The notes below the pieces were generated by a model. The model worked only from the letters and a program-made list of their open reading frames with translations, was not told the DNA's origin and did not search any database. The position numbers and the translations under genes were made by a program. From assembly GCA_002049455.2 (NCBI GenBank), contig KV918878.1, positions 151,207 to 215,206 of the forward strand: DNA of 64,000 bases, in the 5' to 3' direction. Positions 16,830 through 60,616 of this stretch are shown here, one piece after another; position 1 is the first letter of the stretch, and every line of letters begins with the position of its first letter. Origin of the DNA: Porphyra umbilicalis (Eukaryota; Rhodophyta; Bangiophyceae; Bangiales; Bangiaceae).

Positions 16830-17556
16830 TCAACTTCCTGCTGCACGTGCAGCTCCGCGTTCTTGACGAAGCTCGTTAACTCGGACAGCATCGCCTTGAT
16901 GAAGTCAACCATCGGCTTATTGTTCTTGTCCAGGATAAGTTGATACTCATCGATGTGAAAACCAAGGAGCACGGTGTCGCCGGCAGACGCCTCCTCCCGG
17001 TCTAGGACCCGAGCGATGATGGCAGCCAACACGCGCGTGGCCGACGGACCCGTCAGCTTCCCACCGTTAAGGACGTGCACGTATTCTAACGAGACGCACA
17101 GGGCACGTGCGGCCATGCGAGCACCAATGCACTCGCTGGCGTTCCCATTGTCAAGGTCGCGATGGCCGCTGCCGTTTCCCAGGTCAAGGTAGAACGGCAC
17201 AGAGTGCAGTCGATGGGAAGCACTCGCTGATTGCACCCTCGACAGGCGCTTCGCGCGCAGGAGCGCCTCGTATCCTGTGCGCGTTTTGCCACAACGAGCA
17301 GGTCCGTATGACACGAGCAGCTGGGGCTGAATCGTAGAAAACGGGGATAATAAGTTAGTGCTGCTACTGCGTCGATCTTGTACAGAGTTCGACTCGTCTG
17401 GCCAACAAGCGTCGTGAGGGTCGACAGTTGCCGCCAGTTCAGGTACTGCCTCTTAATGGATGGCAGAGGCGCAACTCGCAGTCGAGCTAACACCTGGAAT
17501 CGAAAACACGGAAAAGACCGCATGAAAAACAGACACGAGATGGTACGATCGCGTGA
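16790..17556 (-). pseudogene. Crinkler-type P-loop NTPase, 3' part (split by LTR element A)
   Basis: The minus frame 17314-16740 starts SYGPARCGKTRTGYEAL, a Walker A motif (GPARCGKT). It continues with YLDLGNGSGH and GARMAARAL, then LLGFHIDEYQLIL, a Walker B motif (hydrophobics followed by DE). This combination, with the HIDEYQ phrase, is typical of the NTPase module found in Crinkler (CRN) family proteins of oomycetes, fungi and some algae. Upstream, ending at an acceptor AG near 17325, lies a probable short intron with a CACTAAC-like branch site. The preceding exon reads KRQYLNWRQLSTLTTLVGQ. The gene is cut at 17556 by LTR element A. Its last codons read into the TA-element end. No nuclease or other effector domain is visible here, so activity is unknown. 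Confidence 0.55.
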
Positions 17557-17922
17557 TGTGGCAACAAAGAAGGCGCGAACAAATACCCTAGAACCACACT
17601 GACAGTACAAAAATGAAGGACCTAAAGGGTCAACCTACCGAGAGGACCTAGACGGCGCAAAGGCGCTCAAAGGCTAGGACTCGAGAGGGACGCCAAGATT
17701 TAGATGGCGAGCAAGACGGGGCGGCGCGGGGCAAGGCCGGCGCCGTAATAACAAGACGAAAACAGACGAAAAGGAGAGACGTAAGAGTAACCCCTGGCCC
17801 GAATAGGGGGGCTACTTATAGAGGGACAGCCGTCCCACAGGCCGCAATCCGAAGTACGGTGAGACGGGCGCAAGTCCCGGCAGGGGCATAAGTACTGGAC
17901 TTAGCCCCTGCCGAATGCAACA
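17557..17922 (-). repeat. Element A 3' LTR
   Basis: 366 bp, direct repeat of 27344-27708. In element orientation it starts TGTTGCATTC and ends GCCACA. Immediately 5' of it (17923-17933 on the plus strand, CCCCCCTCGGG) the minus strand reads CCCGAGGGGGG, a good polypurine tract. Confidence 0.95.
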
Positions 17923-17933
17923 CCCCCCTCGGG
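17923..17933 (-). promoter_or_regulatory. Element A polypurine tract
   Basis: Minus-strand CCCGAGGGGGG directly abuts the 3' LTR, the position where plus-strand DNA synthesis is primed in LTR retrotransposons. Confidence 0.6.
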
Positions 17934-18343
17934 CCAAGACCTGGCGGTCACCCGACAGCAAGGACGGATGCGGGGCCGCTCGGGCCGAGCAGCCGCGCGG
18001 GGGTCGCCAGCGCGAGGGCGCAGGGCGGGGCCACCAGGCGACGCGGGCCGCGTGGGGGCGCGCGCGCGGGCAGCACGCGGCGGCGAGCGGCGCCGAGGCG
18101 GACATACCGCCGTGCGGGGACCGGCGGGGGCAGCGTTGAAGAACGCGGGGCGCCGGCGGCGGGGGGCGGCACGCGCGGACGCCATCGGCGTGGGCGTGCT
18201 GCGGGGTTGCCGCTCGGGCAGACGCCGTTGCCGAAGGAGGCGGACGACGCGGTCGGCGGCGGCGGCGGCGGCACGTGCGGACGCCATCGGCGTGGGCGTG
18301 CTGCCGACTTGGTCGGATGGCGGCAACCGGGGAAGCGGCGGCG

Positions 18344-20727
18344 ATGGCCTACATCGCGCCTTCCTTGCGGGACGCGTTGAGGGCGGGGCTGCGGCGGTAC
18401 GCCGAGTGCGTATTGGCGGACCACGACGAGGTGCCGGAGCGGGAGCGGGTGCCGGGGCCAGACCCGCGGAACTAGCCGGCGGTCGAGCACATGCAGGCCG
18501 GCGTACGCATGGCGTACTGGCACGGCGGCATCCACGAGGTGCACTCGCAGCGGTGCGATGGCGAGTTGGCCGTCCGCTTCAGCCGCGAGGTGGCGCGCTT
18601 CGGGACGGCGTTGCCGTCGTGGTTCGTCCGGACGGCGTACGCCTTCGTGAGGGTGAACGAGAACGAGGCTGTCCTCCGCGAGTGGGTGCCGTGGGTGGGG
18701 CACTGCTGGGGCCGCCTTATGAGCCTCATGTTGGACGCGGTGACCCCACTGGCGGAGTACCTGACGGAGTTGTCGCTTCCGTATCTACGGACGTCGGCGG
18801 ACCTCGGGTACGTGCAGGCCGCCGAGGCGCAGCACCGGAAGGCGATGGACGCGGCGGCGTACTACTACGAACAGGCGGCGGACAAGAAAGCCCGTCGTGT
18901 GGACGCGGAGGCGGCGCCACGGGCGGTCCTGCTGTACGAGTGCCCGGCCATCAGCTCCTGGCCGAAACCCGAGCGGGTTGGGCGGGATCTGACGCTCCTT
19001 TTTGCGGAGGGCGACCGCGTGGCGGTCAACCAAGCGCGGAAGGAGGTGGACGTTCGGGCGCGCAAGGGCGACGACGTCCCGTACCTGATGACGGCCGGCC
19101 ACCATGCCAAGGGCTCGAACCGAGCCGGCTGGCGGCGCGTGCCGGAGGCGCTGGGCGAGTTGGAGCTGCCGAGGGGGCTGCACGTGGCGTACCCCACCGT
19201 GCTGTCGTATTATTACGACCGCATGATGGGGGACGACCGCAGCTGCCTGTGGGACATGTACGTGGTGGAGCGCGTGCAGCTCACCGCCATCGCGCTGCTG
19301 GCGGACCTCGCCGGCGGGCGAGCCACCGCATCTCCCCAGCCCTTCTCCACCGGCTGGAGTGTCCCCGTCTGGACGACATGGCGGAGGGGAGTGCGGACGA
19401 GCACGCCCGGCTGCAGCGGCTGCTCCAAGGCATGGCGGTGCTGCTCCCCAAATGGGAAGACGTGGTGGCGGCTGCGGGTTTGCCGCTCGGGCAGACGCCG
19501 TTGCCGACGGAGGCGGACGACGCGGCGAACCCATACGGGTTTCGACTAGCGTTGGACGCTGAGGGCGTCGACGTCCCAAGTCGGGCCGAGCGCGCGACGT
19601 CGCAGAGCTCCACGGCGCGGGGGCCGCCGGAGGCGTCCGGGAACGTGGGGGCGGGGCCCACCCGGGGCGGGGACAGCGACGCGGCCCGGGAGGACGCGGC
19701 GGCGGCAGGCTCGGGATCACCGTCATGGCGGGCCGTGTCGCCGTCGCGGTCGTGGCCGAGGGGGCGTGCCCGGGACGACCCCCAGTGGGTGCCTTCGCGG
19801 TCCCCGTCGCGGTCGTCGCCGAAGAAGCGTGCCAGGGACGACGCCCAGTGGGTGCTGTCGCGGTTCCCGTCGGCGTCGGCGTCGACAACGCGGACGCGAT
19901 CGCCCGTTCGGGGGTCGTCACGTCGGGCGACGGGGTCGCGCCGGACACCGCCGCCGGGACGAGGGACGCCTCGCCCTCGGCGCGGGCCGACGCCGGGACG
20001 GGCAACGCCGCCGCCGGCGGCGTCGCAACGGAGTGGCGCGGCGGCGATGGGGGAATCCGCAAGAGGTAGCCAGCGGTCGTGGTCACCGCCAACGGCGTCG
20101 ACGCGCCGGCGGAAGCCGCCGGCGTCCGCTGGAGCGTCAGGGCGGGCGGACGGCGGCGCGGCGGCGCCCCGACCGGGCTACGCGCGGCGCCGCCGGTCGC
20201 CGGTCGGTGCCGATGGGGCGGCGCGGTCGACGGCGGGGGCAACCGGGTCGCGGCGGAGCGGGGGGACCACGCGAGGGAAACGCCCGAGGTCGTCCGAGGG
20301 GCAGGAGGTGGAGCCCCCCTACGCGGCGCACCACAAGTGGTACCGCGTGGGGTCCATTGCGCCTGAGGGCGACGCGCTCCGGGCGCACCTTTCGGCGGCG
20401 GCCGTGAAGCGCTTGGCCGCGGCGGGCGGCGCGCCGGCTGGCGCCGTGGGGCTGGCGATCAGCCGGGTGCTGCGTAGTGGCGCGGACCGGCTGCACGCGT
20501 CCCTGCGGACGTCCAGCGACCGCACGATGGGGGAGGCGATGGACGGCGTCGTCAAGGTCGTCAAAGAACTCCGCCGCGCGACGCACCTGGAGGACGACAT
20601 TGGTCGTATCCTGGACGAAGTGCGGGCGGCGGACCGCGTGGCTTCTGCCGACGAGCGATTCGTCTATGACGACAGCGACGAGTCGGGGGGCGATCGGCCC
20701 ACGGGTCCTCGGCAGCGGCACCGCTAA
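18344..20727 (+). pseudogene. Element A antisense gene (aORF), broken once or twice
   Basis: Opposite to pol, between pol and the 3' LTR, a plus-strand gene starts at ATG 18344 (MAYIAPSLRDALRAGLRRYAE). TAG at 18473-18475 interrupts it; the frame then continues (MAYWHGGIHEVHSQR, FVRTAYAFVRVNENE, LHVAYPTVLSYYYDRM, CLWDMYVVERVQL) to about 19320. There a frameshift passes to a frame running to 20727: LQRLLQGMAVLLPKWEDVV, a long Ser/Arg/Pro-rich segment (SPSRSWPRGRARDD), then a folded-looking tail (LRRATHLEDDIGRILDEVRAADR). A block of about 100 residues aligns with the antisense gene of element B (60759-62717). No known domain is recognised. Role unknown; possibilities are an RNA- or nucleic-acid-binding accessory protein, judged only from the SR-like tract. 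Confidence 0.6.
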
Positions 20728-23700
20728 GCGGTGGCGCAGGCGTTGACCCGTATGGTGTGGGCCTCCTCAAAGCGGAAGATCACGACGCGCCACACGGGCG
20801 GCGGGGAGGAGGCGGTGCGGCCTGCCACCGTGAACGTAGGATAGGGGGGGTTGAGTTGCACCCGAGCGGCGCAGTAGCGCGTCGCGAGCGTCCAGCAGGA
20901 CTGGTGTTGCCAGCGCGGGGCGACGAGGGTGATGTCGCATGGATAGGAGGTGATGCGGGCAAGGACCTGCGGTAGAAAAGAAAAGGGGGGGTTGGCCCAC
21001 CCGTTCTCGACCGCCCAGTCGACCGAGAACGCCGCGGCGCAGCCGCGCGCGGCGTCCGCGGGGGACAGGGGCAGGAACCGGGGTAGATGGGTGGCCGCGG
21101 CGGTGGTAAACAGGTCGACCGTATTGGGGCCCCAGACCGCGTCGAGTTTCTCGAAGGCGGGGCGGCCCAACGCCCAGTGGGCAGCCGGCGGGTCGTCGGG
21201 AAACGCCGCGAGGAGGGAGGATGCCCAAAGAGGAGGGACGGTATCCTCGTGGCTTTTCGCTGGGGACGCCCAGCGCACATCGACGAGCATGGCATTCGTC
21301 TCGTCGGTGTGCTGCTGGACCGCGACGCAGACCCAATTGGGTTGCCGCGGGGGCGGGGCGAGGACGACCGGCGTCGTCGGGAAGGCGTCGTCGGGGAGCG
21401 TAAACGTCTTCTGCTTCGCTAAGCGGATGACGAGATGTTTCGGTAAACCCGAAATGGGTTCCTACGAATCATCGCCCCGGCCATAAGTGGCCCACCGAAC
21501 TTTCGCCACGATGCCGTTATCGGTGTCGTGGCAAATAGCCAACAGCCGGTCGATTTCCCAGGTCGGATCCTCATCGGAGGAATTCACGTCGGGGAGCGGG
21601 GCCTGTGTAAGCCGATGCGGCTGGGCATCCGGTCCCGGCACCGGGCGCGGTGCCGGTGTGACGTCGTTACTGTTGACCCGTCCTTCGCCATCGCCTTGGT
21701 CAATTACGAAGTAGGTGCCGCCCGTATCGAGAATCTCGAACGGGCCAAGGGCCTAGGGCAGCAGCTTGTGCCCCCCGCGGTGGGAGCGGAGGTAGACGAA
21801 GTCACCGACCACCAGGTCCTTGTTCTTCGGCCGTACCCGGCTGTCCCAGTCTCGCTTAAAGCGAGCTTGGTACTTGTCAAGGGAAGCGCGCACCGTCGGG
21901 ATGAGCTTTTGCAAGCCCTGGATGATGGCGCGCTTCACCATGAGCGGGGAGCCATCGGCGGATGCCAGCGGGGACGAGCCAGCGAGGCTCTCAACCGTGA
22001 GGTTGGGCATACGGCGGGGGATCAGGAGGTCGAACGGCGCCATACCGGTGGCCCTATGCGGGCAGGTGTTGTACGCCAGGCTCAGGGCGGGAAGGAGGCG
22101 ATCCCACTGTCGAGGGTGCTCCTCACAGAAGGCCCGGATCTGGTTCAGCAGCGTACGGTTATACCGTTCCACCTGACCGTTGGTCTGCGGATGGTAAGGC
22201 GTCGTGTACTTGCACCTCGTGCCCAACATATTCATGACGGCGCGGAAGAACGCGTTGTCCATCTGTCGACCCTGGTCCGATAGGACGCAGTCGGGGGGCC
22301 CGTAGGCCGCGACCCATGCGGTCAGGAACGCCGACGCGACCGTGACGGCGGTGATACGTCGGAGCGCAACCGTACGGGTTAGCTTCGAGAAGCGGTCGGA
22401 CATGACGAACACATACCGGTTGCCGTCAACCGTGTTGAGCAGCGGTCCGAGGATGTCAATTCCAACCTTGGTCAACGGTTCCTTTGGCGGGAACAGGGTC
22501 ATGGGGGACGTATGCCGTCGCTCCTGCAGCCGGCTCTTCGCGCACGGCGGGCACTGCCGGACGAAGTCGTACAGGTCGACAGTCATCGACTCCCAATAGA
22601 AGCAACGCTTCATGGCGGCGTACATCCGCTGCACCCCAGGGTGACCTTTGGTCGTCGGGTAGTGCTCGAGGCCCATCACGCGGGAGCGTAGGGCCTCGGG
22701 GATGTAAACTTGCATAACGTCCGTCGTTGGCTGACGGCGCACGAGGCGGCCTTCCTCATCGAGGACGAACCGCTTCGGCTTTCCCGAGTCGATCACGGCG
22801 CGTAGCTGCTGGCATCGGCAATCCGCGCCTTGTGCGCGAAGGAGCTCCTCCGCTGTGATAGGGGGAGGCGGTAACGGCGCCGAGAAATTGTTTGTGTCTG
22901 TGCCCCTGGCGGCCTGAGCCAGCAGGAAGCATGGGATGTCGTCGTCCAGCTCCTTCTTGTCCAGACCCGTCGTGGGTACGCGGGACAGGGCATCGGGGAG
23001 GTGGTGGTTCGCTCCCTTCTTGTACTTCACCTCGAAGTCGAACTCCGCTAGGCGGAGGCGCCAACGGAGCAGACGACCGGTGGCCGTTGTCAGCCGGTAG
23101 ATTCAACTGAGGCATTCGTGGTCGGTACGCAATGTGAACCGCGAGCCCGCCACATATTGTCGGAGGTGGAGCACAACCCAGACGAGGCCCAGGCACTCCT
23201 TCTCGGTGGCCGAATAGTTGCGTTGATCGGGCTGCAGGGCGCGGCTGTAGAACCCCACGGGTTTCAGCTGGCCGTCCTGCTGCTCTTGGAGCAGAGCGCA
23301 CCCCAATTGGGTGTCGCACGCATCGACGTCAAGGGTGAAGGGCGCTCCGCGGCGGGGGAGCGCCAGGACCGGCGGATGAAGCTGCGCGTCGCGTAGGCGC
23401 GTGAACGCTGCGGCCTGCGTTTCGGTGAACGTCGGGAGCGTGTCGCCGTACGCCTTGGTTGTCAGCTGGTTTAGGGGCGCTGCAATCCGTGCGTAGTTCG
23501 CGACGAAGCGGCGGTACACGTTACACATGCCGATGAAGCTACGCAATTGCATCTTTGTTCGCGGGTGACCTACCTTCGCGAGCGCCTCCAGGTTCTTGTT
23601 AAGCACCCGCATCTCCCTAGGGGATATGATGTGCCCGAGGTACTCGACGGACGTCTGGAAGAACTGGCACTTCTTGGCCTTCAACGTGACGCCGGCCCGA

Positions 23701-25211
23701 CCCAAGCGGGTCAGGGCTTCGTCGAGCGCTTTCACGTGGTTCTCCGGGGTGTCGGAGAAGACGATGACATCGTCGAGGTAGACAAGGCACGTTTGCCAGG
23801 TCATTCCGGACAGGGTGATGTCGAGGGCACATTGGAAGGTCGCGGGAGCGTTGGTGAGGCCGAAGGCCATCTTCACGTACTCGTACGTGCCCATGTGGCA
23901 GGTGAAAGCGGTCTTGTCGATGTCGTCCAGGGCCATGGGTATCTGCCAATACCCGGCATTGCAGTCGAGCGTTGAGAACACGCGGGCGTCTCCCAGCGAG
24001 TCGATGCAATCCTCCATCCGCGGGATGGGATAGGAGTCCTTCTTTGTCACCGCATTGAGACGACGGTAGTCGACGCAAAAGCGTGGCGACCCGTCTTTCT
24101 TGGGGACGACAACGACAGGGCTTGCCCATTCACTGGTACTTGGTCGGACGACCTTGGCTTCCAGCATCCGATTGACCTCGTCACGGATCATGTCAAGGGC
24201 ATGGTGACCCGCGCGGTACGGTTGCTGCCTTACCGGCTTCGTCCCGGGTTGGACCTCCACGCGGTGGACGGTGGCGTCGGTGGAGCCGAGCGTCCCGTCC
24301 AGCATATACGCATGGCGGTGAATGAGTGCCTGGACATCCGGGAGTAGCCGGTCGGGTACGCCAGAGAGATCGACTTGGTCTAGCACCGCTTCTGCGGCCG
24401 CGGTGGGCGATGCCGCGTCGTCAGTGACGAGCAGGCCGTCAAAATCGTCGACCGGACTAACGGTAGCGAGGATAGATCCCTTGCCGAGGCAGACCGGTTT
24501 TTCGCTGAGGTTAGCGACTTCAACGCTGAAGCGTTGCCCCGGGACAACGACGGCCAGGCCCCGCGCCGTTTCACAGCGGTGATGCCTGTGAAGGCGGTTG
24601 TACGGCGCGACTAGGACCTGACCAGCGAGGTCGGCGGTGACCAGCAGGGCCGTACTGGTTTGCGGGGGCAGCACCCGCCGCTGCGCGAGGCGCACCGTCG
24701 CATCCTTCGGGGATCGGCGGCGTTCTTTCTTGCCGCGTGCCGTGCACGATAAGATGGGCACCGAAGCATCGGTGGACCATCTGACGCGTTGACGGCGCGG
24801 GTAGAGCGCCTCGACATGGCGGTTGATGAAACTGGTGCCGAGCAGCACAGGGACGGCGAGGCGCGGGACGACGACAAAGTCGACGTCCGTGGCGAAGACA
24901 CCGGAGCGCAGGCGCATGGTGATCATGCCTCGGGCGGAGATAGGGGATTTATTTGCGTCCACAATGTGGGGCAAATGAGGGCGTCGATGCAACCGCCGCT
25001 CCCAACCCTTGGGCAGGGCGTCCATCCGAATGATCGAGGGCCCGGCGCCTGTATCCAGGGTCGGTGTCATCAGCCGCATGCGAGCCTCGTCAAAGCCGAG
25101 GGACGCGGGGATGGTATACTGCCGGTATACCGGAGCCAAGACACGGTGTACCCGTATCTTCGGGCCCTGCGGGCTGGGGGCGCCACGGGGCGGCCGAGCC
25201 GCTAGCGGCAC
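20724..25211 (-). pseudogene. Element A pol: protease-RT-RNase H-integrase-chromodomain-methyltransferase-like
   Basis: One minus frame of about 1,495 codons, broken by TGA (23103-23105), TAG (21753-21755) and TAG (21462-21464). Order: protease (TLDTGAGPSII), RT (RFCVDYRRLN, QTCLVYLDDVIVF), RNase H (TLDVDACDTQLGCALLQ, RTDHECLS), integrase zinc finger (LEHYPTTKGHPG then CPPCAKS), and integrase core with D (VGIDILGP), D (LSDQG) and E (GQVERYNR). The chromodomain follows (WEIDRLLAI..., KVRWATYGRGDDS-stop-EP). The last 180 residues resemble the Dam-like methyltransferase domain of DIRS elements: VDLFTTAAATHLPRFL, AAFSVDWAVENGWANPPFSF, LVAPRWQHQSCW. Two of the stops replace Trp. The frame differs from gag, so pol would need recoding or re-initiation. 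Confidence 0.92.
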
Positions 25212-25219
25212 GCCCCGTG

Positions 25220-27102
25220 TTAGTTTCCCGGCCCGGCAGGGGCAGGCGGGTCCACCGTTGGACTCGGATCCGGTTGCGGATCCCCGGGCGAGGCGCCGAC
25301 CGTCTCGTCTCCGCTGACGGAGCCGGTGTCGTCCGGCACCAGCGGATCACCCCAGGGGTCCCCGGCGATGGCGGCCATCGGGTATTGCATACGACTTGGG
25401 CGTAAGGCAGGACGGGCCGCGCCAGGGGGTCCCGGGGCGACCGCAGGCGGCGCACCTGTCCCCATCGCCCGTTCGGGCGAAGGACATACGCAGGCGTAGT
25501 GACCGAAACCGCGGCAGCGGTGGCACTGCACCTGGCTCAGGTGGACGAGAGCCGGCCGTCCCGCCGGACCGCCCGGTCGGGGAGACCATTGGGTTGCCTT
25601 TCTGGCCGACGGCGTCCGGGCCGCCGGTGGCGTAGGGTTGAATGCCTGGAACGGCTGCTGCGGTAAAGGCCGACCCATGGGGTTCCGGCTCTGTGGCGGC
25701 GTGGCCTCCGACGTCGTCGCTGGTGGCGCCGCCCAGAGGACCGGTTCGGCTTTTGCTCCGCTCCCGGAGCCCAGCTGCAGGACGCTCTTGGCCTTGGCGT
25801 ACCGGTCGGCTTTGCCGGTGGTGACCTTGACCAAGCGGAGCCCATCGCCGATCTTCTGCGAAAGCGCCACGAGTTCGTCGAAGGTGGCGCATGTGCGGTC
25901 GGCCAGCTCGGCTTGGGCACGTGCCGAGGGGTGGAGCCCCTTCAGGACAGGTACCGTAGCTGCCCCGGGTCGTGCATACCCATGAGCTGTTGGCCGAGCC
26001 GCATCAACCGCTGATAGAAAGCGCGCTCGCCTTCGTCTTGGCGCTGCTCCGCGGTACGGACGGCCATTTCGGCGGTGTGCAGGGCGTCCTCGGGTGCATA
26101 GCGGGTCAACAGATAGTTGATCGTGTGCGGGAAACTGGTACCGACGGCGCTGCCGTGTGGGCCATCTGTTTCCTGGACGAAGTCGTCCTTGGCCTCACCG
26201 CCAACGCGGTAGGCGAGGAGGTACGGGGCCTCGCCCAAAGTGACATCCATCTTGTCCGCGGCTGTGCGGAAGCGAGTGAGGAGCGCCAGGACGGCCAGCG
26301 GATCCGAGCCATCGAAGAGCGTGACGCCGTGGAACGGACCGTCCAGCAGGCGATGGCGCCTGAGGAGTTGGCTTGCTTTCGACCGGCCATACGTCGGATC
26401 CGCATTGCGGACGAGGAAGCGGCGGAAGTCGAGCAGCGACGAGAACGGGCCATGCTTGGACGTCAAGGGGAGCGGCCAGGGGATGACCGCCATTTGCGTC
26501 GAAGCTGTCCGACCGGTGACCCGCGTGCGGGTGCGGCGCCGTGAGCGAACGCGGTGGCGCGCGGGGCCGGTGCCGTCACTGCTGCTGCTGCTGCTGGGGT
26601 CTCGGGGCGGCTCGTCGACATCGGCAGACCGCGAAGAGCGGGCGTCGGGATCCGATCGTACGCCCGCGCTCCGCGAGGCCAACGGCGACGTTGAGGCAGC
26701 GGACCTGCGCGACCGAGGCCGGTCACGCGGGGCCGGGGTGTTTGCCGGTGTTGGGTCAGTGGGCCGGGGTCCACTGGCGGTCGACATCGGCAACGTCCCA
26801 GTTGGGTCGCGCAACGTTGTCACGTCGGCGCGTAGCTCTCGGACGGACGCAGCCAACGTACGCACGAGCGTCGTTAACTCGGCGACCGCCGATTGCTCCG
26901 CGCGACGACTAGTATCGCCGAGGGAAGCGCCCGAGCCGCCCGAAGCGGGAGCCGCTGCGGTTGGATCGGGGAGACCAGAGGCATCGTGGGGAAGAGGGGG
27001 AGTCGTAGTCGCAGGGGCTGACCCGTCGGCCGAACGCCGAGCGTCAGCGCCCGTATCATGAGGGGGGGCAAAGCGCGGGGGATCGGCACCCCCGCTCGCC
27101 AT
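25220..27102 (-). pseudogene. Element A gag with zinc knuckle, one frameshift
   Basis: ATG at 27102 (MASGGADPPRF) opens a gag protein. It has a Ser/Thr/Pro-rich N-terminus, a predicted coiled coil (AVAELTTLVRTLAASVRELRADVTTL), an Arg/Ser-rich linker, and a capsid-like helical region (SSLLDFRRFLVRNADPTYG, INYLLTRYAPEDALHTAEMA, ERAFYQRLMRLGQQLMGM). The frame closes at TGA near 25942. The same protein continues one frame over (LKGLHPSARAQAELADRTCATFDELVALSQKIGDGLR), implying a one-base loss near 25945. It carries the nucleocapsid zinc knuckle CHRCRGFGHYACVC (C-x2-C-x4-H-x4-C) and ends at 25220, nine bases before the pol open frame. I chose 27102 because earlier starts in the frame are non-ATG. 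Confidence 0.88.
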
Positions 27103-27323
27103 CGGAGATAGGTTGGCTTCTTCTCTCGAGATAGCACAAACCCGGACACAACGGCACCACGGCCCGTCGGGCACCGTCGAGCGACTCCCCCGGCCTGCAA
27201 CAACAGCCGCCGGGTGACCGGGACCACAAAGTGGTCACGTCACGTGAACCGTCAGGGGCGTCCGCACCGTTGTCGCCGGGGCTCGCGAGAGGAGAGGCGT
27301 CCCTCGAAAGGGACGACGCCCTC

Positions 27324-27341
27324 TCCCCTGCTGCTCCACCA
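27324..27341 (-). promoter_or_regulatory. Element A primer-binding site
   Basis: Two bases inside the 5' LTR, the minus strand reads TGGTGGAGCAGCAGGGGA, starting with TGG as expected for pairing with a tRNA 3' CCA. The same 18 bases occur at the same position in element B (56042-56059). The implied tRNA ends CTGCTCC-A-CCA. The amino-acid identity is not assigned. Confidence 0.8.
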
Positions 27342-27343
27342 AG

Positions 27344-27708
27344 TGTGGCAACAAAGAAGGCGCGAACAAATACCCTAGAACCACACTGACAGTACAAAAG
27401 AGAAGGACCGAAAGGGTCAACCTACCGAGAGGACCTAGACGGCGCAAAGGCGCTCGAAGGCTAGGACTCGAGAGGGACGCCAAGATTTAGATGGCGAGCA
27501 AGACGGGGCGGCGCGGGGCAAGGCCGGCGCCGTAATACCAAGACGAAAACAGACGAAAAGGAGAGACGTAAGAGTGACCCCTGGCCCGAATAGGGGGGCT
27601 ACTTAGGGAGGGACAGCCGTCACACAGGCCGCAATCCGAAGAACGGAGAGACGGGCGCAAGTCCCGGCAGGGGCATAAGTACTGGACTTTGCCCGGCCGA
27701 ATGCAACA
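27344..27708 (-). repeat. Element A 5' LTR
   Basis: 365 bp, about 96% identical to 17557-17922 by eye. Differences are spread along the length, including a small deletion in the CCCCTG/CCCGG region near the outer end. Confidence 0.95.
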
Positions 27709-28205
27709 TGTGACACCAGCCGCGGCAAACACATGCGAACGATGCACAAAAAAACAAGAGAATCCAACACAAAGAAGGTTACAGATAATGTCGAGACCCC
27801 TGGGCTAGTACCCTCGGATGTGACAAACGCTCCAGTGCACGTCGCAAAGCCACATACCAGGACGGTCTCTTTAGAGAGAGACGCATGCACAGGGTCGTCC
27901 GCGCCGTCGCCCGACTCGCCTGCTCCGGCGCCAACCTGTGCCAGGATCGAATTTATCAGCTCCTCCTCGATCAGCTGCATCTCCTTCCACTTTCTATCCA
28001 ACGAGACGTACAGGTCCGACACACCCCCACCCGATGGAGACGCATCTTCATCCGACGGGGACGAGTCCACGTCCACTTCCCGTCGTTGGCATGTTACAAT
28101 CAATACAAGACGTGCCTTGCCGGTGCATATTCGGCTGACAAGGGTGGGCGGGTGTCTCACCAGGGAAGCTGGTACAGCACACCATGAAGTAACCACCACC
28201 AGCAC
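27709..28205 (-). pseudogene. Possible 5' part of the gene split by element A
   Basis: Directly right of element A, a minus frame reads an acidic Ser/Asp-rich stretch (VDVDSSPSDEDASPSGG), then SDLYVSLDRKWKEMQLIEEELINSILAQ, then Ser/Thr-rich sequence ending in a hydrophobic run (FFVLDSLVFLCIV) close to the LTR. Because the LTR element lies between this and the NTPase remnant at 16790-17556, and the NTPase also reads leftward, the two could be parts of one gene. Nothing in this piece is diagnostic. The first codon of the frame is not ATG and an intron upstream is possible. The hydrophobic run could instead be translated intron. Confidence 0.3.
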
Positions 28206-56268: not shown

Positions 56269-59200
56269 ATGTCTACTGGTGGTACCGGCGGCACTCGGCG
56301 AGCCAGAGACGGCAAGTTGCCATCTGGCTTCCGGCCGCCGGGCGAAGGACAAGGCACTCCTGCCGCCTCCGACGCCCCAACGGACGGTGCTCCAACTCCT
56401 CCCATCCCTGCGGATCAAGCCGCCTCTGGGCAGATGCAGGTGGTGGAGAGCCTGAAGGCGGCCGTTGAAGCACTTCAGCGACGCCTCACGGCCCAAGAAC
56501 AGACTAACGAGTCTCTGGCGCGAGCCAATGACAAGTTGGTCGACGACGTCGAGGCCCTGCGCAAGATCGTCTGGCAAGAGCACGTGCGATGCACGGAAGA
56601 GCAACCTCGGCCAACGCCGATCTTAGCTTGTCTTAATGACAGCGCGTGGGACCGCCACTGGCAAGATAAACCCGCTCGGGTTCGAGCCTGCAAACAGGTG
56701 CGTGTCAACGGACACAAGGAGGAGTGGATCATGGCCACGTGCGACACGCCTGGTATGGTTACCATCACACCGAACATTCGGTTGTGCCGACACAAGTCCA
56801 TGGCAGTCGCCCGCGGCATCGCCATCGTCAAACCGGACGAACCATTCCTGGTCAAGTTATGCAACTTCGGCAAGGACCAAGTCATTGTTCGCAAGAACTC
56901 TACCTTGGGGTTTGCAGAACCCTACCAAGGGCCGATGCTTTCCGCCGTCTTGGATGACAACACCCAAAAGGGTGGAACCGATAACGCATCGGACGACGCG
57001 AGTCGTGACCCACTCGAGGATCTCGACCTCAGTGAGGCACCCGAGTACCTGCACAAGCAGATTCGAGACATGCTGAAGACGCATTCGTCTATGTGGGATG
57101 GAACCCTTGGCGTCATCCGTGCTACGGAGCACGCCATCGTCACTCCTCTCGACGCTCTGCCCATACGGGCCCAACCCTACCGCACCGGGCCGTTCAAACG
57201 GCAGATCATCGCTGAACAGATCAACAAGATGTTGAAGCTCAACGTCATTGCCCCAAGCCATAGTGCTTGGGCAAGCCCCGTGGTAATTGTACCAAAGAAG
57301 AACGGCAAAGCCCGATTCTGTGTCGACTATCGTCGGTTAAACAACATCACCAAGAAGGATGCTTATCCCTTGCCTCGGATGGAGGACTGCCTCGACTCCT
57401 TGGGAGATGCCCAGGTGTTCACGTCTCTCGACTGCACCGCGGGGTACTGGCAAGTACCCTTATGCAAGGAAGACCAAGAGAAGACGGCGTTCACAACGCA
57501 TTGTGGTATATACCACTGGTAATCCATGCCTTTCGGCTTGACGAACGCGCCCGCTACCTTTCAGCGCGCGTTGGATATTATCCTCTCGGGTTTGAAGTGG
57601 CAGATATGCCTTGTCTACTTAGACGATGTCATCATCTTCTCCGCAAACGCGGAACAACACGTCAAAGACGTTGACACTGTTCTGCACCGTCTGCGCGAAG
57701 CCGGGGTTACCCTGAACTTGGAAAAGTGCACGTGGTTCTCCGATGAGGTCAAGTACCTAGGACACATTGTCCGTCCCGGGCAACTGCACGTGCACAACAA
57801 GAACGTGGATGCTCTGAAGCATGTTCCAAACCACAAAGACCCAGCTGAAAAGCTTCTTGGGCATGTGCAACGTCTATCGACCGTTTGTCAAAGACTTTGC
57901 CAAACGAGCAAAGCCCCTGAACGCCCTGACTAGGGCCGAGATCCCAACGGATTTACCACCACCGACGGACGTGGCTATCGCCGCCTTCGAGGACCTTGGC
58001 AACGCACTGTTGGGCCCACCGGTACTTGCTTTTTCGAAGGCCAATCGGAAGCTCGTCGTTGACGTGGACGCATGCGCCGACCAAGTTGGTTGTACCCTCC
58101 TCCAAGAGGAGCCGGGCGAACTGCTTCACCCTGTCGGGTATTGGAGCCGAGGACTCACTGCTGCAGAGCAAAACTACTCCACCACGGAGCGAGAATGCCT
58201 CGGCGTCGTGTGGGCTGTCCTCAAGTTGAGGCACTTCCTCGACGGACAACGGTTCCTCATCCGAACGGATCACCAAGCACTTAGCTGGATCTACAGCACG
58301 ACCGACTCAAGCGGACGCTTGATGCGATGGCGACTTCGCCTTTCCGAATACACATTCGATATGGTTTATAAACGAGGTGCATCGCACCACTTGCCCGACT
58401 TCCTGTCGCGCGCCTCTACGGTGGCTCCGCCAGAAGATATCCATGATGATATACCTTGTCTGGCATTAGCCGAGACGGCCAACGGCTTAAGAACGGGGAG
58501 GTACACGGGTACCGACACACCGGAACCGGTGGAGTTCGACGATGTTGTCATAGCACAACAAACAGACGACTTCTGCGTCGAGATGTCCACTCGCGTGGAG
58601 CGCGGAACGGCCAAGGCCTTCTTCCGCGATGAGCATCACGCTCTGTACCGCCGTGCGCCTTACGGCAAACAATTGGTTATTCCAAAGTCGCTAAGCGAAC
58701 GCGTGTTGACCCTCGAGCACCACGCAACCGTCGCCGCCCATCCTGGTATGAACCGGATGTACTACACAATGCGTAAGGCATACTACTGGCCTTAAAAGGT
58801 GACGGATATTCATTCGACCATCACCAAATGCACAACGTGTGCGCAAAACCGCCTCGCCTTGCGGCGACACACCACGCCCTTGACCCTGTACCAGGCTACC
58901 GAGCCTCTCACGGAGCTATCCGTTGACATCTTTGGGCCCATCCCGGCCTCCAAGAAGGGCAACCGCTTCATCTTGGTTATCACCGACTGCTTCGCCAAGC
59001 TCACCAAGTGCGTCGCCTTGCGGCGAATCACGGCTATGTCAGTGGCGTCAGCCATCATCGACGCGTGGGTATCAGCCTACGGGCCACCGGACCGGATCCT
59101 ATCGGACCAAGGGCCCCAGTTCATGTCGAACTTCTTCATCGCTGTGATGAAAATGCTTGGCATTGAAACTGTCCGCACCACGGCGTATCATCCCCAAACC

Positions 59201-60616
59201 AATGGGCAAGTTGAACGGTACAACCGTACCATGGCTACGCAGCTGCGACACTACGTCGCCGACGACCCATCACGACGGGATGAGCTACTCCCGGTAATCA
59301 CCATGGCGTATAATAGCCAACCACATCGGTCGACGGGCATCGCCCCATTTGAGCTCGTTATCTCAAGGCGGATCCCCAACCTCACGGTTCGCAACTTGCC
59401 CCCGGGCACTCCGCTTACCAATAAGGGAACGCTCAAGGATGGGTCACCCCTAGCTCGCAAACGCGAGTTCATGGCCCGCCTGCGCAAGCAGATCCCCATC
59501 GTGGTAGAGGCCTTGCGCAAGACGCAACAACGTTACAAACGTAACTTCGACCATCGGGTCGCAACCCGCAATGCGGACGTCAAGATCGGCGACTACGTAT
59601 ACACGACCAACCACGATCGGCAAAATAAGCTGCAAAGCAAAGCTATTGGCCCCTTCGTGGACGTTGACGCAGACGCGGACGCCTCCACGTTTGTCATTGA
59701 CATTGACGGCGAGGAGAAACGCGTCAGCAGTGACCATGTCACCCCAGCTCCACGTCCAACGACGACGGACACGGTTCCACACCCCTTGCTAGATGGTCTA
59801 GACCAACGCAAGTCACCCCCGGTAACTGCCGATGAGTATGTGATCGACAAACTCCTAGGCTTACGCCAGACGGGTGACAGCTATAGCGCTAAGGTGCGCT
59901 GGTTCGACTACGGGTCGAAAGACGACACCTGGGAACCCCGGGAGAACCTTCCCCGCAACCTGGTGGTGCGTTTCCTTCGACAGAAGAAGAAGCATGTACC
60001 GGGGTACGAGTGGCAAACGCCAACACGACGAAGTCGCCGACAGGCCGGGCTCACAACCGTGGCCAACATCGTCATGGACTCCACGTGGATACCCACTATC
60101 CAACATGTCCATGTTACCGGTGACGGAGTTATCCATGCCGATGTCTCTTGGACAGAGTCAAGTACCGACGCTGCAATTAAGGAAGTAATTCCTGTGGCGT
60201 GGCTCAAGTGCACTCTGCCGTCCATGACGCGCAACATTGCGTATGATCCCCAACTTGCCTTGCGGCATTTCTCTCGGCTGAACCGTGTTTACGGCCCGTA
60301 CACATATGTGTGGCCGAAATCCGCACAGGCGACACTGATCGGGAGCGATCCCCGTGTACCAGTGCTCCCCAACGGGTTTCTGGTACCTCCGGTGCAACAC
60401 TTGGACTCAGTCCTTCGACGCTTGGTAACAACCACAGAAGAAGCAACCGTGGTTATACTACAATGGACCAACACCAGTTGGTACGCTACTGCCATACGTG
60501 CATGTTTCGAGTACGAGGTGCTTTTATCAGCAGACTCAAGGGATACAAATCCCACAACATGGGCCATGATGGCCTGCCACTTCCTTCATCGCTATGACGA
60601 TAAACAGAAAAACTGA
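56269..60616 (+). pseudogene. Element B gag-pol, internally deleted and broken
   Basis: ATG 56269 (MSTGGTGGTRRARDG) opens a short gag-like N-terminus with a coiled coil (VESLKAAVEALQRRLTAQEQ). It runs without capsid, zinc knuckle or protease into the pre-RT region. RT: RFCVDYRRLNNITKKDAYPL, then ICLVYLDDVIIF at about 57605. RNase H: VDVDACADQVGCTLLQ. Integrase: zinc finger LEHHATVAAHPG then CTTCAQN; core D (SVDIFGP), D (LSDQGPQF), E (GQVERYNR). Chromodomain at about 59833-59985 (EYVIDKLLGL, KVRWFDYGSKDDTWEPRENL). The C-terminal 200 residues align with the methyltransferase-like end of element A but read NGFLVPPVQHLDSVLRRL where A has NPPF. Two TAA stops and one frameshift are present. Confidence 0.92.

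Follow-up and report, generated by a model that had tools for sequence, protein, structure and literature searches.

Retrotransposons of the DIRS type carry a tyrosine recombinase and encode, after RNase H in one pol frame, a Dam-like methyltransferase (MT) domain whose function is stated as unknown in a passage of PMC3266345. Here we describe a relative of that domain in a different setting: at the end of the pol of element A, a long terminal repeat (LTR) retrotransposon in a 64,000-nucleotide stretch of Porphyra umbilicalis DNA (GenBank assembly GCA_002049455.2, contig KV918878.1, positions 151,207–215,206, forward strand; hereafter ‘the window’, numbered from its first letter). Like the DIRS-type MT, with which it is homologous along the whole domain as far as the terminal FRF, the MT of element A follows another nucleic-acid enzyme within one pol frame; here, though, that enzyme is a DDE integrase, a chromodomain comes in between, and the whole is bounded by LTRs.

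The nearest precedent found is a cytosine methyltransferase in a Gypsy element, KnitGypsy-Dnmt3 of Klebsormidium nitens (de Mendoza et al. 2018; PMC5890265). This is likewise a Gypsy element with an acquired methyltransferase under purifying selection, but the enzyme is a DNMT3, not derived from DIRS elements and called in the same text structurally unrelated to Dam-like adenine methyltransferases. Orchid Gypsy elements have an extra N6-methyladenosine (m6A) demethylase frame, according to a section of PMC9289625. Chromodomain Ty3/Gypsy elements in general resemble element A in their LTRs, the order reverse transcriptase (RT)–RNase H–integrase, the GPF region and a chromodomain at the integrase C-terminus, but the frame of element A continues for about 225 residues into the MT. 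Phage Dam-like N6-adenine methyltransferases (PF05869, TIGR01712) have the NPPF/NPPY motif in common with it but are free-standing proteins, 15–22% identical to the window MT, and PCIF1/CAPAM, the nearest predicted fold and also an NPPF protein, differs in being an RNA enzyme. Among the matches listed for open-licence PMC full text (main text), none reports a chromodomain integrase, or a Gypsy element, that carries a Dam-like MT; with DIRS MTs and a Gypsy DNMT3 already known, the fusion of a Dam-like MT to a chromodomain Ty3 integrase is apparently new.

An in-frame fusion at the end of element A pol

One reading frame on the minus strand carries the pol of element A from a protease-like stretch through the MT domain (20769–21179) to a stop codon at 20724–20726. 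The sequence-only reading had placed three conserved stretches in a single frame beyond the chromodomain, and all three are there: the VDLF...LPRF stretch (VDLFTTAAATHLPRFL, 21072–21119), with an Asp that three aligned phage Dam proteins all share; the NPPF catalytic-type motif (motif IV, 20982–20993, within ...NPPFSF at 20976–20993); and, downstream of it, the LVAPRW stretch (LVAPRWQHQSCW, 20892–20927). The continuity of the frame past the chromodomain is also borne out, as it is open from 21461 to the stop codon, a span that takes in the C-terminal portion of the chromodomain as well as the MT, with integrase and RT upstream in the same frame. The window copy has in-frame stops at 23103–23105 (RNase H), 21753–21755 (integrase C-terminus) and 21462–21464 (chromodomain), and none within its MT portion.

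Element A spans 17557–27708 (minus strand, as are all its features unless stated) and is bounded by a 5′ LTR (27344–27708) and a 3′ LTR (17557–17922) that are 96.2% identical over 366 columns and have TG...CA ends. The first part of pol (23103–25346), which runs to an in-frame stop, contains a protease-like stretch (DTGA at 25032–25055; RVP E 0.0018, 19.0 bits, below the cut-off of 20.7), RT (RVT_1, 6.8e-34) and RNase H (RT_RNaseH_2, 1.5e-28). The integrase part (21753–23102; H2C2 zinc finger, rve core and GPF region) also runs to an in-frame stop and was matched by Integrase_H2C2 (1e-14) and rve (9.4e-9); the GPF region itself is read at 21726–21746, followed by the chromodomain, a spacer and the MT. 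The chromodomain (21408–21566) is interrupted by the stop at 21462–21464 in the window copy, and in the sister copy P0001 it matches PF00385 at E 0.0012 and 19.1 bits, below the cut-off of 25.1. Element A thus has both marks of Ty3/Gypsy elements, LTRs with TG...CA ends and the order protease–RT–RNase H–integrase (with RVP weak), and, in place of the tyrosine recombinase of DIRS retrotransposons, a DDE integrase and LTRs. On these sequence features it is classed as a chromodomain Ty3/Gypsy element, with the chromodomain at the C-terminus of integrase, a label that, unlike the ‘chromovirus’ of the sequence-only reading, is independent of RT phylogeny; Ectocarpus chromodomain Gypsy lineages are reported, in the relevant part of PMC12477816, as not being chromoviruses.

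Homology to the DIRS-type MT, the central claim of the sequence-only reading, was recovered in pairwise, profile and fold comparisons. Element A MT is 27–39% identical to DIRS-type MTs of the same genome (mostly 29–39%; best match 4e-23 at 36%), aligns with them over its full length to the terminal W..FRF, and reaches 99.9% in profile–profile comparison with the DIRS MT. Its DIRS-type relatives are RT–RNase H–MT proteins of elements with a tyrosine recombinase: RVT_1 lies upstream of Dam in all seven scanned, and the recombinase (PF00589) was matched in three of the four downstream or overlapping frames examined, in each case below the Pfam cut-off. These relatives match Pfam Dam (PF05869) above its cut-off of 28.1, which was surpassed at 50 of the 53 other places in the genome, and they also match phage adenine methyltransferases; four of them gave weak Pfam PCIF1 matches. 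Alignment of element A MT with the three phage Dam proteins shows G, D, PP and P to be invariant. Scanned alone, the window MT matched no PHROG, and a phmmer search of the PDB had no hit below E 0.3; nor did a profile built from 18 MT domains match any PDB sequence. Matches of a further profile (A1) to many PDB RTs were discarded, as A1 contains full DIRS proteins. The link of element A MT to Dam, as the sequences stand, is therefore a chain of homology and not a direct score.

Foldseek places the predicted MT model, which has a Rossmann-like methyltransferase fold, nearest to N6-adenosine/adenine methyltransferases. The top structural match is PCIF1/CAPAM, a cap-specific adenosine methyltransferase with the NPPF motif in common at 10–17% identity, and the list also includes T4 Dam, E. 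coli Dam and TaqI. Profile and structure comparison, which the sequence-only reading had proposed as its own check, thus returned methyltransferase similarity in both forms, with the direct Pfam Dam score staying below its cut-off. That reading had also named Ngaro elements as carriers of the domain; here it does not stand, since Ngaro elements are reported without an MT in a passage of PMC3266345, and ‘DIRS-type’ is the safer label.

The fusion recurs in the genome (83.8 Mb, 665 contigs), which we searched with the 245-amino-acid (aa) pol tail of element A. There are 36 close copies of the tail including that of the window, 86–100% identical along 233 or more of the 245 residues. Of these copies, 26 are stop-free, and in three sister copies (C3, C94 and C28) a single open frame of 1540 aa includes the MT. 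The tail therefore belongs to the pol of an element family and is not an accident of the window copy. The search gave 115 matches, with loci for 30, so that copy-level tests use 30 of the 36 close copies. Sixteen more distant matches were fetched, eight of them Ty3 integrase–chromodomain proteins with the tail (L033, L040 and L071–L076) and eight DIRS-type with the same tail (L032, L034–L039 and L077). Database proteins from the sources jgi and ena (P0002–P0009 and P0060) have an integrase C-terminus and/or chromodomain and then the MT, incomplete in P0007 and P0008; proteins with the same fusion are 80–91% and 50% identical to that of the window.

Lineages, catalytic motif and selection

The Ty3 elements with this tail fall into four lineages: A (the window element and its copies), B (L040 and P0009), C (L033, L076 and P0060) and D (L071–L075, L081 and L084–L086 in the motif count). 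A second chromodomain Ty3 element in the window, at 57902–60616 (plus strand; pol as read from RNase H to the end), belongs to lineage D and has the same C-terminal extension, with one in-frame stop. Its MT-like domain (60242–60613, plus strand) is degenerate, with VPPV replacing NPPF, and the lineage D MT profile still matches the DIRS MT at 97.1%. The chromodomain of this element matches PF00385 above the cut-off (3.1e-7, 30.6 bits), and that of lineage C reaches 1.8e-5 and 25.0 bits, against the cut-off of 25.1.

NPPF is kept in 28 of 30 lineage A copies, and lineage B has one SPPF and one NPPF. By the (D/N/S)PP(Y/F/W) pattern, a catalytic motif is present in the window element and lineage A, is absent in D and is not strictly present in C; from these sequences, the catalytic status of the motif in B and C is doubtful. 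DIRS MTs without the Asn also occur, as FPPF, YPPF and TPPF in the genome and as VPPV, VPPP and FPPA in the database (including P0011 and P0012), and the catalytic residue has therefore been lost in both element orders. The motif count includes 40 DIRS rows from the genome, several of which are the same place fetched twice (for example, L032/L061 and L038/L066).

The MT is under purifying selection much like that on integrase, though weaker in a test restricted to shared sites. Pooled pairwise ratios of nonsynonymous to synonymous change (dN/dS), in which related copies are counted many times, are, in lineage A, 0.37 for both the MT and the chromodomain and 0.40 for the integrase core. The shared-site test counts each site once and takes only changes common to at least two copies, most of them presumed older than insertion; for the lineage A MT it gave 13 synonymous and 11 replacement changes, with replacements at 0.36 of neutral (p=0.01, one-sided, uncorrected over 18 tests). 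In lineage D, the degenerate MT has a dN/dS of 0.30 and the integrase core of 0.22 (12 sequences).

Further features of element A

The segment between chromodomain and MT (21195–21338) and its equivalents in B, C and D resemble, by eye, a degenerate second chromodomain; the similarity is not significant (hhalign against the chromodomain, 18%). Its dN/dS is 0.93 in lineage A and 0.42 in D, and in the P0002 model (mean predicted local distance difference test score, pLDDT, 47) the spacer forms low-confidence strands and a helix.

A 430-aa open frame in the gag position (25942–27234) matches no Pfam family. The 2.8 kb from the pol stop to the 3′ LTR are filled by an antisense open frame of 940 aa (17905–20727, plus strand), which gave no Pfam family on scanning. 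Over the 1.5 kb adjoining pol, in 28 copies, this frame shows fewer stops (1.6 per copy) and a lower dN/dS (0.67) than any of the other five, and for that reason it may be coding. Sequences flanking the LTRs (17542–17556 and 27709–27723, ...CGTGA / TGTGA...) suggest a target site duplication of 4–5 bp with one mismatch.

Proposed origin and role of the MT domain

Our preferred reading, to which we give a probability of about 0.5, is that a Dam-like MT was captured from a DIRS-type pol and is probably an active adenine methyltransferase in lineage A and a non-catalytic binding module in lineage D. The comparisons above show homology, in-frame fusion, retention and purifying selection; the enzymatic role is what we infer. 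Most likely, an ancestor of the four Ty3 lineages acquired the MT from a DIRS-type pol, in which it is the last domain, after RNase H. Integrase is the protein that brings the cDNA to the chromosome, and the MT is made as its C-terminus. In lineage A, for which an adenine methyltransferase is the first choice because the catalytic motif is present, the domain would travel on the integrase–chromodomain protein as an N6-adenine methyltransferase and could methylate the DNA copy of the element, the DNA at the landing site, or both, the chromodomain reading chromatin and the MT writing a base mark. Lineage D has lost the catalytic residues, and its fold would serve only in assembly or in binding nucleic acids; there the MT presumably binds only, because the two residues that inactivate PCIF1 when lost are missing while the fold is kept, and catalysis appears dispensable because the motif was lost while D-like elements are abundant.

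Several observations weigh against this reading. The window MT alone scores 12.2–13.8 bits against Pfam Dam (E 0.046–0.15), far below the cut-off, and the lineage C MT reaches 25.1 bits; one DIRS-type locus, L061, gave no recombinase match. The Foldseek matches have weak E-values (2.9e-3 at best, none below 0.001), the nearest fold is an RNA and not a DNA methyltransferase, and the MT model has a mean pLDDT of 66, with residues 67–78, right after the VDLF stretch, below 50. Stops fall within the tail stretch in 10 of the 36 lineage A copies listed, and NPPF has been lost in L020 and L027. The motif is NPPP in all three lineage C sequences and VPPV (8/9) or VPPE (1/9) in lineage D, where the DLF stretch is gone, and D-like integrases (55–58% identity to A) account for 111 of 150 scored matches out of 1478 candidates, MT presence not being checked in each. 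Two lineage D loci, L080 and L083, of the six fetched on account of chromodomain hits (L080, L081 and L083–L086), have no MT profile match in pieces of at least 80 aa. In the shared-site test, constraint is weaker on the MT (0.36) than on the integrase core (0.20) or the chromodomain (0.08).

The main rival is that the domain is a retained pseudo-methyltransferase in all lineages, serving integrase as a DNA/RNA-binding, targeting or assembly module with no methylation even in A. We hold this to be less probable than an active enzyme in lineage A: D-like elements, the bulk of the scored matches, keep the fold under purifying selection (in the 12 sequences compared) despite lacking the N and F of NPPF, the same two residues mutated to inactivate PCIF1 (in the part of PMC10544176 concerned), and the NPPP of lineage C points the same way, but lineage A retains NPPF and the residues invariant with the phage Dam proteins, and a purely structural role offers no reason for keeping exactly NPPF. 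We think it improbable that the domain is a PCIF1-like enzyme that methylates RNA at adenosine N6, with the element's own transcript or primer as its target. The top structural match and the weak PCIF1 matches of four DIRS relatives would fit it, but the stronger sequence matches are to phage DNA adenine methyltransferases, bacterial and phage Dam and TaqI are among the fold matches too, and the MT is located on integrase, not near gag. Both Ty3 and DIRS elements are plentiful in the genome, and Ty3 copies that landed in or next to DIRS elements might by coincidence read a DIRS remnant in frame; we give this almost no credence, as the fusion sits inside an LTR-bounded unit and is common to four lineages (MTs 23–45% identical to that of the window) and to database proteins. 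Insertion next to a DIRS element as the source of the MT is ruled out by this shared, diverged fusion.

Whether capture happened once bears on the preferred reading. The sequence-only reading would have been undermined by related elements with the MT as a separate gene or absent; the MT is fused in all four lineages, and absence was found only in more distant Ty3 families, at three loci of two other chromodomain families (L078/L079 and L082; 1.3–1.4 kb downstream fetched). Since four lineages carry the MT and these families lack it, the simplest view is of a trait derived in one Ty3 group here, acquired by a single capture. The integrase–chromodomain tree has two pairs, A–B (84/99) and C–D (96/93). 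Against this history, L082 sits in an unresolved fork of that tree, so that MT loss, rather than primitive absence, is possible there, and Ty3 MTs are monophyletic in only 26% of bootstrap trees, with one group neither shown nor rejected (approximately unbiased test, p-AU 0.44). It seems unlikely that the MT entered Ty3 elements repeatedly and from separate DIRS donors, say once in a forerunner of A, B and D and a second time in C. A 93/95 branch of the 63-row MT tree has lineage C on the same side as DIRS, and Ty3 rows require three changes in a 38-row tree, which omits 25 of those rows including the long branches P0061 and P0062; but C attaches to a very long branch in the larger tree, a single group is not rejected (p-AU 0.39 without D), C goes with D by integrase and chromodomain, and the order chromodomain–spacer–MT is common to all four lineages.

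Tentatively, and at somewhat less than even odds, the locus would combine in one integrase a reader of chromatin or DNA marks (the chromodomain) with a writer, an adenine methyltransferase from another retrotransposon order, passing from active enzyme (A) to pseudo-enzyme (D) within one genome. The MT, apparently captured, may let element A chemically mark its landing places. A DIRS MT module is found here on a DDE integrase in the same genome as its DIRS relatives, in an apparently catalytic and a degenerate version, one of each in the window, and setting the two side by side is a natural way to ask whether DNA is marked by the MT or merely bound. The fusion points to module exchange between retrotransposon orders with unrelated integration chemistry.

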